A stretch of 42,638 nucleotides of DNA from an uncultured Erysipelotrichaceae bacterium (lineage in GTDB: Bacteria; Bacillota_I; Bacilli_A; RFN20; CAG-826). The stretch's first letter is position 1. Every line of letters starts with the position of its first letter. Where the stretch lies: the NCBI GenBank assembly GCA_902797855.1, contig CADBUI010000027.1, positions 1-42,638 on the forward strand, in the 5' to 3' direction. The notes under the pieces were generated by a model. It was not told the origin of the DNA, made no database searches, and was given only the letters and a program-made list of their open reading frames with translations. Shown piece by piece: positions 38,801-42,638 of the stretch. A program made the translations under genes and the position numbers.

Positions 38801-38937
38801 TTAGTGATATCTATGAAATGTCAGCTTCTTTCTTAAAAAGAAACAAAGTTGTAGTGATTAAAGGATATTATCAACTTTCTAGAAATACATTTAATGTAAG
38901 TGAAATTCTTCCTGTGGAGGAAATGAAAAATGAATAA
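35890..38937 (+). CDS. dnaE: DNA polymerase III alpha subunit, DnaE type
   Basis: A C-family replicative polymerase without a proofreading domain. The PHP domain (about 1-200) starts MFIPLHVYTGYSFL. Compared with an active PHP domain, metal-binding His residues are replaced (Tyr at the last position of the His cluster, and CDQ in place of TDHG). The polymerase core has GPGRGSAGGSLVAHALG and the catalytic PDIDVDFSD. The C-terminus holds the helix-hairpin-helix region and an OB fold (VVAGIIKTIKTI ... LEVTLFSDIYE). At 1015 aa it is typical of the shorter Gram-positive DnaE. I chose start 35890 from the promoter. The stop overlaps polA through ATGAATAA. Confidence 0.96.
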   Translation: MFIPLHVYTGYSFLRSGLRIEQYLKEAKKMGYTVLGICDQMSLTGAPHFVEGSQKYGIKPIVGEDLLIEGLLVSFFVINEIGYRNLTKMSSLAKTGNLLLSDVKSYSNGLAVIIDMDNSLIKDKFTNELSTFPHYLAELTKGITNLYLGINDYGENREYMEKVRDFISNYPYDPIAFPIIKYLKKEDAIVLKMFEAINKNETIEEKSASGNHYLLSNKEIEHLYTEEEIKNTTKLASLINFDLLTNNRGKMVKFKNDLNLSSDDYLTKLASDGLKKLGLDDLKHIDRLNEELNVIKSMGFSDYFLIVSDYVNFARNNNIPVGPGRGSAGGSLVAHALGITVIDPLEYDLLFERFLNKARQTMPDIDVDFSDIKRELVVEYIKQKYGRDHVSNIMAVQTIGAKQSLRDIGRIYNYPQRDIDLLAKLIPTHHSQDITLRETYKTVPQFKNLLDKDKYYLEIVSLASKIEGFPRQRGMHAAGIVINAEPLNEVIPVTSDINGNLVEEYEMNYLEKQGFLKMDILSIRNLTIVEEVLEKLKAKGINLKMDDIPYKDKEAIDVIAKGNTTGIFQLESKGMRNAILTVKPENFEDIVAILSLFRPGPMQEIKSYANRKMGKERIDYISPITKKILAPTYGIIVYQEQIMQIASLMAGLSLSEADLFRRAISKKDTSKLASLKETFIRGCLKNGYKRDVSEDVFKSIYKFADYGFNKSHSVSYAVFSCRMAYLKAKYPEEFYASILDNTGGESDSFTLAISEIKSAKIKIKGPDVTSSGKEFIIKDGALLFPLNRIKGLFNEVANNIILERESNGPFYDYYDFVTRMKRYKLASSQLMKLIDAGALDSLDKSRASLRLNMSNAIAYANMIADDEGTLIIDMRDFAKPVYEHIEDDLLENLNKEYESLGLMLSGSPLDLYKDKLSKIKLTSLVDVASSRGDIVVAGIIKTIKTIKTKKGTPMAFMTIYDESGELEVTLFSDIYEMSASFLKRNKVVVIKGYYQLSRNTFNVSEILPVEEMKNE

Positions 38938-41530
38938 ATGCTATATCATCGATGGAAACTCACTTCTATTTAGGGCCTTCTATGCGACTTATCGCGGGAA
39001 CGATAATGAAGTCCTTAGAACTAAATCAGGTATTCCTACGAATGCCTTATTTGCATTCGCAAATATGATTAATAGAATATTAGCTGGACTTAAACCAAAT
39101 GATTCTATCTTTGTTGCTTTTGATACAGGCAAAGCTACCTTTAGACATATCGAAGACAAAGACTATAAGGCTAACCGTAAACCTTGCCCACCTTTATTAA
39201 AAGAGCAGATGCCAATAGTGAGAGAATTTTTAAAATCTCTTAATATTTTCACCTACGAAAAAGAAGGATATGAGGCTGATGATATCGCTGGAACATTCGC
39301 TAAAAAAGCCAAGAAAGAAGGATATGAAGTAATTATCTACACAAGCGATAGAGATTATCTCCAACTTATCGAAGATAATATCGCTATTCATATTTTAAAA
39401 ACAGGTATGAGTAATATTGTCGTCATGGATGAAGAAAACATGATGAAAGAATATGGTATTAAACCACTTCAAATCATTGACTATAAAGGTCTAAGAGGAG
39501 ATTCAAGCGATAACCTTCCTGGTATACCAGGAGTGGGTGATAAAACCGCGATCAAACTCATCCAAGAATATGGAAGTTTTGAAAAAATCTTAGAGATCGC
39601 TCCAACGCTTAAATCGAAAGTTGGAGAAAGCATTGTTAAAAATGCTGAGATGGGTAGATTATCCTACCATTTAGCGAAAATTGATATTAATGTCGAACTA
39701 CCTTTTACAGTTAAAGATACTGTTTATGAAGGCTATGACTTTAAAGCAATTAACGAATTCGCATCTCGCTATGAATTAAAACAATTCATGAACAAACTCC
39801 CTCAAAAGCTTAAAAAAGATGATGGAGAAAGCGTTAATTTAGAAATTATAAATAAAACTAATTTTGACGATGTCTCTTTTAGTGATGAAATTGGTATCGC
39901 TTTAGATAAAGATGAAGGTAATTATAACGACGCAAATATTTATGGACTTGCAATCTATAACAACGATATTAGTTATTACATAACTAAAGAAGATATGCTT
40001 AAGGACGAATATCTCCTTAAAGCGCTTAAAGATAAATCAATTAAAAAATACTGCTATGACTTTAAAGCAATTAAGGTTGCGCTTTCTCATGAAAATATTG
40101 AAATAGATGGACTATATTTTGATTCTTTATTAGCAGCCTATCTACTTGATTCATCACTTAACAACAACGTTGATGCTGTCATGCATTACTTTGGAGTGGA
40201 TGTTTCCACAAATAAAGATAATTCACTTTCCTTATTTGATAATTCTGATCCGCTTAAAGCATCTAAGATTGCCTATTATTCAAAAAGAATCGCTGTTAAA
40301 GCGATTTCTGAAATGGATAAGATGGAACTTCTTAAGCTATATAACGAAGTTGAAATTCCTCTATGTAATGTCCTTTCCGAAATGGAAATTGAAGGTTTCC
40401 CATTAAATGGTGAGACTCTTGAAAAGATGGGAGAAAACTTCAAAGTTAATTTAGAAAATTCAAAGCGTAAGATTTATGAGCTCGCAGGTGAAGAATTCAA
40501 TATCGATTCACCAAAGCAAGTTGGAGAAATCTTATTTAGTAAACTCGCTCTACCTTGTGGAAAGAAACAATCAACATCAGTGGAAGTACTTAAATCACTT
40601 GAAGGACTTCACCCAATCGTCGGGGAAATCTTAGTGTATCGAAAATACGCAAAACTACTATCCACTTATGTAACTGGATTACTTTCTCATATTAGAGAAG
40701 ATGGAAAGATTCATGCAATGTTTAACCAAGCCTTAACTCAGACAGGTAGACTATCATCTAGTGAACCTAACCTTCAAAACATCTCTATTAGAGATGAAGA
40801 AGGTAAGATGATCCGAAAAGCTTTCTTTTATGAAGATGAAAAATATTCAATTCTTTCACTAGATTATTCTCAAGTTGAACTTAGAGTACTTGCCTCATTA
40901 AGCGGATGTAAAAAATTACAAGAAGTATTCTCAAGTGGAGAAGATATCCACGCTTCCACCGCTAAAAATGTTTTCCATGTTGATAATCCAACTAGTGAAC
41001 TTCGCCGTAGAGCGAAAGCTGTCAATTTCGGAATTATATATGGAATAAGCGATTGGGGACTTGCTGAACAAATCGGAGTGTCTCCAAAAGAGGCTAAACA
41101 AATAATTTCATCATTTTATGATGCCTATCCAGAAATTGGAACGTATTTCCAAAAAGTTGTCTCTAGCGCTGAAAAGAATTCATATTCCACAACATTACTT
41201 GGTCGAAGAAGATATCTTCACGAAATTCATGACGCTAATTATCAAGTTAGAGAATTCGCTAGAAGAGCTGCGATGAACGCTCCTATTCAAGGAACAGCTG
41301 CCGATTTAATTAAAGTCGCAATGATTAAAGTAAATGACGCTTTAAAAGAAAAGAAACTTAAATCTAAACTTGTTTTACAAATCCACGATGAACTTTTGTT
41401 TAAAGTTCCTAGTGAAGAAAAAGATATCGTTTTACCACTTGTGAAACAAATAATGGAAAACGCGATAAAATTAGATGTTAAATTAGAAGTAGATGGAGGA
41501 TATGGTCGAACATGGTTCGATGCTAAATAA
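38930..41530 (+). CDS. polA: DNA polymerase I
   Basis: Gap filling and primer removal. The N-terminal 5' nuclease domain (about 1-290) starts YIIDGNSLLFRAFYA and contains EADDIAGT and LRGDSSDNLPGIPGVGDKTA. The middle domain (about 300-460) keeps the exonuclease fold, but the active-site acids look partly lost: ALDKDEG at the first site and SKRIAVKA where a YxxxD motif is expected. The polymerase domain has motif A LSLDYSQVELRVLASL, motif B RRRAKAVNFGIIYG and motif C LQIHDELLF. The length is 866 aa. GGAGG inside the dnaE 3' end serves as its SD. Confidence 0.97.
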   Translation: MNKCYIIDGNSLLFRAFYATYRGNDNEVLRTKSGIPTNALFAFANMINRILAGLKPNDSIFVAFDTGKATFRHIEDKDYKANRKPCPPLLKEQMPIVREFLKSLNIFTYEKEGYEADDIAGTFAKKAKKEGYEVIIYTSDRDYLQLIEDNIAIHILKTGMSNIVVMDEENMMKEYGIKPLQIIDYKGLRGDSSDNLPGIPGVGDKTAIKLIQEYGSFEKILEIAPTLKSKVGESIVKNAEMGRLSYHLAKIDINVELPFTVKDTVYEGYDFKAINEFASRYELKQFMNKLPQKLKKDDGESVNLEIINKTNFDDVSFSDEIGIALDKDEGNYNDANIYGLAIYNNDISYYITKEDMLKDEYLLKALKDKSIKKYCYDFKAIKVALSHENIEIDGLYFDSLLAAYLLDSSLNNNVDAVMHYFGVDVSTNKDNSLSLFDNSDPLKASKIAYYSKRIAVKAISEMDKMELLKLYNEVEIPLCNVLSEMEIEGFPLNGETLEKMGENFKVNLENSKRKIYELAGEEFNIDSPKQVGEILFSKLALPCGKKQSTSVEVLKSLEGLHPIVGEILVYRKYAKLLSTYVTGLLSHIREDGKIHAMFNQALTQTGRLSSSEPNLQNISIRDEEGKMIRKAFFYEDEKYSILSLDYSQVELRVLASLSGCKKLQEVFSSGEDIHASTAKNVFHVDNPTSELRRRAKAVNFGIIYGISDWGLAEQIGVSPKEAKQIISSFYDAYPEIGTYFQKVVSSAEKNSYSTTLLGRRRYLHEIHDANYQVREFARRAAMNAPIQGTAADLIKVAMIKVNDALKEKKLKSKLVLQIHDELLFKVPSEEKDIVLPLVKQIMENAIKLDVKLEVDGGYGRTWFDAK

Positions 41531-41532
41531 AA

Positions 41533-42638
41533 ATGCCTGAATTACCAGAAGTTGAAACTGTTAAAAATACTTTAAAAAATCTAATCATTAATAAAAAGAT
41601 TGTTAGTGTTGATATTTATCGAGAAAAGACAATCTTAAATGATATTAGAACTTTTAAAGATGCTTTAATTAATTCAACAATTTTAGATATTTCTAGAGTT
41701 GGTAAATATCTTATCTTCCATTTAGATAATGACTATGTCATGATTGCTCACTTAAGAATGGAAGGAAAGTTCTTCTATAAAGAAGAAATTAGTCCAATTA
41801 CTAAACACGATTTAGTGCTCTTCACTTTTAGTGATTCAACTTCTTTAACATATAACGACACGAGAAGATTTGGAATTTTAAAAGTCTTAAGTAAGAATAA
41901 CTATTTAAATGAAGACCCACTTAATAAAGTTGGTCCTGATCCATTTATGATGAAAGACGCTTCTAGATTAATTAAAGAGTTTAAAAATAAGAACATTCCA
42001 ATTAAGAGTGCGCTCCTTGATCAAAGCATTATGTCTGGACTAGGAAACATCTATGTTGATGAAGTTCTTTTTGACACGAAAGTTCATCCATTAACCCCTG
42101 CTAAAGATATATCAAAAGCTAAATTAGAAGAGATTTTATTATCTTCAAAGAAGATATTAAAACAAGCCATTAAACAAGGTGGATCCACCATTAAGTCATA
42201 TCATCCAGCGGAAGGTATTTCAGGTGAATTCCAAATTAACTTAAAGGTTTATGGTCATAAAGATGGTAAGTGCGCTAGATGCCACCACCACCTTAGAAAG
42301 ATATTTGTAAATGGTAGAGGAACTACCTATTGTCCAAACTGTCAAAAGAATATATCTGCTCCGCTTGTGATTGGTTTAACTGGCCCAATTGGAAGTGGAA
42401 AGTCCACCGCTAGTGAGTATTTCCTTAAGAAAGGATTTAAAGTTATCGATGCAGATAAAATCGTTAATGAACTATATTCTTCTAAAGAAGTAATCGATAA
42501 TTTAAAAAGGATTATTCCTACTTTAAAAGTAAGTGATAACAAAGTTGATAAATCTTTCTTAAGAAACTATTTGGTGGATAATCCTGCTAAAAAAGCTCGT
42601 TTAGAAAAATATATCCATTCTCTTGTAATTGCTCATAT
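41533..42638 (+). CDS. mutM-coaE: Fusion of formamidopyrimidine-DNA glycosylase (MutM) to dephospho-CoA kinase (CoaE), 3' end cut by window
   Basis: One open frame from ATG 41533 to the window edge (368 codons) with no stop. Residues 1-272 are a complete MutM: MPELPEVETV with the catalytic Pro2/Glu3, VGKYLIF, IAHLRMEGKF, NDTRRFG, QSIMSGLGNIYVDEVLF, and the C-terminal zinc finger CARCHHHLRK ... GRGTTYCPNCQ. After only about five residues, LVIGLTGPIGSGKST (from about 278) opens a CoaE domain. Its P-loop, VIDADKIVNELY and the start of the lid/helix region follow. MutM removes 8-oxoguanine; CoaE phosphorylates dephospho-CoA. The gene order polA-mutM-coaE is known in Bacilli as separate genes. The start lies two bases after the polA stop. 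Confidence 0.9.
   Translation, partial: MPELPEVETVKNTLKNLIINKKIVSVDIYREKTILNDIRTFKDALINSTILDISRVGKYLIFHLDNDYVMIAHLRMEGKFFYKEEISPITKHDLVLFTFSDSTSLTYNDTRRFGILKVLSKNNYLNEDPLNKVGPDPFMMKDASRLIKEFKNKNIPIKSALLDQSIMSGLGNIYVDEVLFDTKVHPLTPAKDISKAKLEEILLSSKKILKQAIKQGGSTIKSYHPAEGISGEFQINLKVYGHKDGKCARCHHHLRKIFVNGRGTTYCPNCQKNISAPLVIGLTGPIGSGKSTASEYFLKKGFKVIDADKIVNELYSSKEVIDNLKRIIPTLKVSDNKVDKSFLRNYLVDNPAKKARLEKYIHSLVIAH

Follow-up and report, generated by a model that had tools for sequence, protein, structure and literature searches.

Gene order and domain architecture of the locus

The window, a stretch of 42,638 nucleotides on contig CADBUI010000027.1 of an uncultured Erysipelotrichaceae bacterium, ends within a reading frame that carries a DNA glycosylase (MutM/Fpg) followed by a dephospho-CoA kinase (CoaE). 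The following features, all on the plus strand, were assigned:

38930..41530, + strand, DNA polymerase I gene (polA), the upstream neighbour (translation read, ORF list)
41533..42351, + strand, MutM/Fpg part of the fused gene, residues 1-273 (Pfam, NCBIfam)
42346..42363, + strand, junction or linker of about six residues, K272-N-I-S-A-P277 (sequence, start-codon and Shine-Dalgarno scan)
42364..42638, continuing to contig position 42942, + strand, CoaE (dephospho-CoA kinase) part, with its first ~92 residues inside the window

The fused gene starts with an ATG at 41533, two bases past the polA stop codon. Its frame is open from 41533 to 42636 without a single internal stop in the ORF list and the sequence, and on the parent contig it continues to a stop at 42942, giving a protein of 469 aa (L002:534-1943). 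In the source genome, a draft of 30 contigs, the profile search yielded one CoaE match and one gene with the H2TH domain of the MutM type was present, both within the fused frame. Downstream, convergent genes on the minus strand (L002:1915-4145, contig positions 42914-45144) encode a DnaB_2-type replication initiation protein (PF07261) and a DnaI-like protein, the latter assigned by our own reading of the translation, for which Pfam gave no match. Beyond these follow genes that read as phosphofructokinase, glucokinase and ThrS. The gene order resembles the polA-mutM-coaE-dnaB-dnaI-thrS neighbourhood of Bacillus.

Pfam placed Fapy_DNA_glyco at residues 1-114, H2TH at 134-222, zf-FPG_IleRS at 246-273 and CoaE at 278-451 of the protein. 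The H2TH (PF06831, 85.7 bits) and zinc finger (PF06827, 31.6 bits) matches were each above their cut-off, and the NCBIfam equivalog fpg scored 288.7 bits (cut-off 203.3). The CoaE half matched PF01121 with 100.1 bits (cut-off 27) over model positions 1-178 of 180, on the contig at 42364-42885 with an E-value of 1.1e-29, and the NCBIfam dephospho-CoA kinase model TIGR00152 with 111.8 bits (cut-off 65.55) over model positions 1-187 of 188. The proposal of the first-pass annotation, that MutM and CoaE form one polypeptide, thus stands on a single open frame with complete domains, and the extension of the contig supplied the full CoaE domain. Its reading of CPNCQ at residues 267-271 and of a linker of about six residues was also correct.

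The zinc finger cysteines of the MutM half are C247, C250, C267 and C270; in another fused protein (L132:3001-4416), the last zinc-finger cysteine motif reads CRHLQ in place of CPxCQ. The catalytic dyad P2-E3 was present in every aligned row that reached the N-terminus, and the catalytic K58 was kept in all 83 fused rows. The P-loop GPIGSGKS (residues 284-291) and the DAD motif (306-308) of CoaE both lie inside the window, and G284, G289, K290 and D308 were likewise kept in 83 of 83 fused rows. The active-site residues of MutM and the P-loop and second aspartate of CoaE are invariant among the fused relatives, and, judged by sequence, both halves are full-length with their core catalytic residues retained. 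The CoaE half is looser in the fused set than in separate CoaE proteins: variation affects E391, Q431 and the first D of DxD, and some members may therefore be inactive.

The best sequence match of the MutM part in the PDB was the Lactococcus Fpg 1tdz (E 9e-58). An AlphaFold model was made on a relative of the same genus (L127, 466 aa) and reached a mean pLDDT of 88.4 and a pTM of 0.83. Foldseek matched its MutM half to MutM-DNA complexes with a TM score of 0.94 by target. The junction, residues 271-280, was ordered in the model with a mean pLDDT of 91; the relative orientation of MutM and CoaE in it is suggestive only.

Start signals at the junction

One hundred nine fused genes and 56 non-redundant separate gene pairs were scanned for a Shine-Dalgarno-like word and for an ATG no more than eight codons away from the beginning of the CoaE domain. 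Such an ATG was present in 55 of 56 separate genes, but in only 10 of the 109 fused genes. The near absence of these signals from the fused genes indicates that the means for an independent start of CoaE have been lost.

This result bears on the possibility that the fused frame is real, but that most CoaE arises as a free protein, either because translation starts internally or because the linker is cut. In the window, the linker region 42346..42363 is devoid of a stop, an ATG and a Shine-Dalgarno sequence, as had been described for the absence of a separate coaE start; that description overlooked an in-frame GTG at 42367-42369 (V279), where the CoaE part begins, which would be a candidate start codon for a separate CoaE, although no Shine-Dalgarno sequence precedes it. 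Also in favour of a separate CoaE, one fused gene, L064:837-2300, retains AAGGAG and an ATG within the frame, at the point where CoaE begins. It looks like a recent fusion, and a free CoaE could still be produced from it. It is, however, the only one of the 109 fused genes with both signals, compared to 35 of 56 separate genes, and 84 of the 109 have no ATG, GTG or TTG anywhere near the CoaE start. The short and ordered junction in the L127 model argues in the same direction. Production of CoaE mainly as a separate protein is thus considered unlikely, and the product is better described as one polypeptide, although proteolysis at the linker or a weak initiation at the GTG of the window may occur.

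Distribution and repeated origin of the fusion

In a class-wide sample, a table count found the fused frame in 41 of 41 genomes of the same family with CoaE, with both domains and a length of 460-533 aa. Nearly all genomes of the same order with CoaE have MutM preceding CoaE in one frame of about 460-497 aa. The fusion also occurs in other families of the class (f2, f3, f5, f12, f16, f19, f25, f26, f27 and f28). It is further carried by two genomes of the same genus as the source genome, 'Bacillales bacterium UBA4278' (DGVS01000001.1) and CAMKPL010000002.1, and by the isolates Acholeplasma laidlawii QMP CG1-1743, A. equifetale ATCC 29724 and Secundilactobacillus mixtipabuli. Absence from all close relatives had been named as a result that would speak against the fusion; close and distant relatives alike carry it, and it is common to essentially all sampled relatives of the source organism. 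Apart from one locus, the clade of the window is fused throughout, so that the fusion in this clade is old. In that locus, L170:2692-4045, MutM and CoaE lie in different overlapping frames, a probable frameshift that is either genuine or from assembly. Fission within the genus, suspected in four genomes (G238, G319, G375, G409) from matches with a stop inside, was rejected, as direct reading of the ORFs revealed terminal stops. A gene in a single-contig genome of 0.6 Mb (G479:C1:497380-498795) matched both domains with TGA and TAG codons inside; it may read TGA as tryptophan or may be decaying.

In most other Bacilli mutM and coaE are adjacent, separate genes, in agreement with the earlier view of two unrelated functions that are neighbours in this class. 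The separate genes of Streptococcus, Listeria, lactobacilli and Enterococcus have the same order as the fusion; they differ from it in yielding two proteins, with an own ATG and usually a Shine-Dalgarno sequence for coaE. A single stop codon separates the in-phase genes of Streptococcus, Listeria and several lactobacilli. The spacing of separate pairs is usually 12-35 nt from domain end to domain start, and 11 of 33 pairs in an unbiased locus sample shared the frame, as expected by chance. An apparent enrichment of same-frame pairs (31 of 56) was rejected, as it stemmed from the collection of L145 and the loci after it by tblastn. With this spacing and about a third of the pairs in the same frame, the loss of one stop codon can fuse them. 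Intergenic stop loss, as proposed in the first-pass annotation, fits these data; a spacer gene need not have been lost as well, because a spacer exists in some lineages only, e.g., a GFO/IDH/MocA oxidoreductase gene in L191, and most close pairs are without one. The separate fpg and coaE genes of Streptococcus pyogenes shift their expression together (PMC4259489), which fits co-transcribed neighbours.

On a tree of 104 rows calculated from MutM plus CoaE, the fused or separate state needed 10 changes, 7 of them forced by strongly supported branches; a bootstrapped tree of 57 rows needed 9 changes (bootstrap range 8-10), 6 of them forced. Both counts are unrooted, hence each event may be a gain or a loss, i.e., a fusion or a fission, and L170 was excluded from the careful tree. 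A single ancestral fusion was rejected: none of the bootstrap trees (0 %) had a single state change, and the constraint of all fused rows to one clade failed the AU test (p-AU 1.02e-5). According to the trees, the fusion has arisen repeatedly within Bacilli and Mollicutes. The changes were presumably gains in the majority, since a loss would require that a start site be restored.

The fusion in A. laidlawii PG-8A and A. equifetale shares the domain order and the end-to-end junction (2-6 residues) with the window protein, and in the A. laidlawii QMP and A. equifetale genomes it is present as a single copy, as in the source genome. It forms a tree branch separate from the clade of the window, and its CoaE half is more canonical (139-150 bits versus 100 bits). 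In animals, CoaE is likewise one domain of a two-domain protein, COASY (PPAT-DPCK), which differs in that consecutive steps of one pathway are joined. In Mycobacterium tuberculosis, a UPF0157 domain is located C-terminal to CoaE. This two-domain protein (PMC2765170) differs from the window protein in that UPF0157 is unrelated to DNA repair. Mycoplasmas have a HAD(Cof)-DPCK fusion (PMC8721197), like the window protein one polypeptide with a C-terminal DPCK and the partner at the N-terminus of CoaE, but the partner is a Cof-type phosphatase and not a DNA glycosylase. MutM-CoaE is a neighbour-gene fusion, a kind already known, and CoaE is a frequent fusion partner. The literature searched, with subscription journals and protein databases outside the search, contained no description of a MutM-CoaE fusion. 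UniProt or InterPro may already carry the architecture as an automatic entry.

The several state changes on the tree and the long conservation of the fusion once formed would also be expected if the fusion were a functional device that was selected repeatedly, because attachment of CoaE to a repair enzyme that binds DNA connects oxidative DNA damage with the metabolism of CoA or dephospho-CoA. The tether would then, e.g., make the dephospho-CoA level or CoA-based redox chemistry respond to oxidative damage at the DNA. The pTM of 0.83 and the short ordered linker of the model may suggest a defined arrangement of the halves. Recurrence, however, is easy for adjacent pairs that are often in frame, the mycoplasma fusion indicates that tolerance of an N-terminal partner suffices, and a residue specific for such a link was not found; we regard this device as very unlikely, less probable still than a separately made CoaE. 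An assembly or sequencing error that deleted a stop codon, conceivable for a draft of 30 contigs, has practically no probability and was rejected, since dozens of independently assembled genomes, finished chromosomes and isolates among them, have the same fused frame.

Probable function and annotation of the fused protein

With high probability, the gene encodes one bifunctional MutM/Fpg-CoaE polypeptide that originated from the loss of the intergenic stop between same-frame neighbours, followed by a decay of the coaE start signals. The stop codon would have been lost between the adjacent operon neighbours mutM and coaE, and the start signals of coaE would have decayed after the fusion. The predicted product is an 8-oxoguanine/Fapy DNA glycosylase-AP lyase joined end to end with a dephospho-CoA kinase, probably made at full length, uncleaved and with both active sites working. 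The tie would serve co-expression, as a neutral or mildly useful device, and would not couple DNA repair functionally with CoA synthesis; both enzymes most likely work like their free forms. A type III pantothenate kinase (PanK) and CoaD were present in the source genome, whereas a CoaB (DFP) domain was not detected in it; the genome of A. laidlawii QMP has the same pattern of PanK type III, CoaD and CoaE without a CoaB/DFP domain. CoA is therefore probably made by salvage of pantetheine or 4'-phosphopantetheine via CoaD and CoaE, and selection on the C-terminal half is likely maintained by its CoaE activity.

The fusion affects the annotation of related genomes. A review of phytoplasmas from 2011 described A. 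laidlawii PG-8A as lacking mutM, reported that phytoplasmas encode a CoaE 'annotated as Fpg', and suggested that they perform the last step of CoA synthesis (PMC3322544). A. laidlawii PG-8A (L223) encodes the MutM-CoaE fusion with the junction peptide CPKCQPSYVVAITGG. The phytoplasmas AY-WB (L229) and 'Ca. P. australiense' (L231) encode MutM alone, with 275-277 aa, and CoaE was not found above threshold in these two of the four reviewed phytoplasmas. The statements of the review are contradicted for PG-8A, AY-WB and 'Ca. P. australiense', and for the latter two the suggested final step of CoA synthesis is left without a basis. In the simplest account, the CoaE half gave the Acholeplasma gene its name, which was then transferred to the phytoplasma MutM. 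Automatic naming tends to give a MutM-CoaE gene only one of its two names. The gene presents a clear natural case in which adjacency and a frequently shared frame have led to several independent fusions of two unrelated enzymes.
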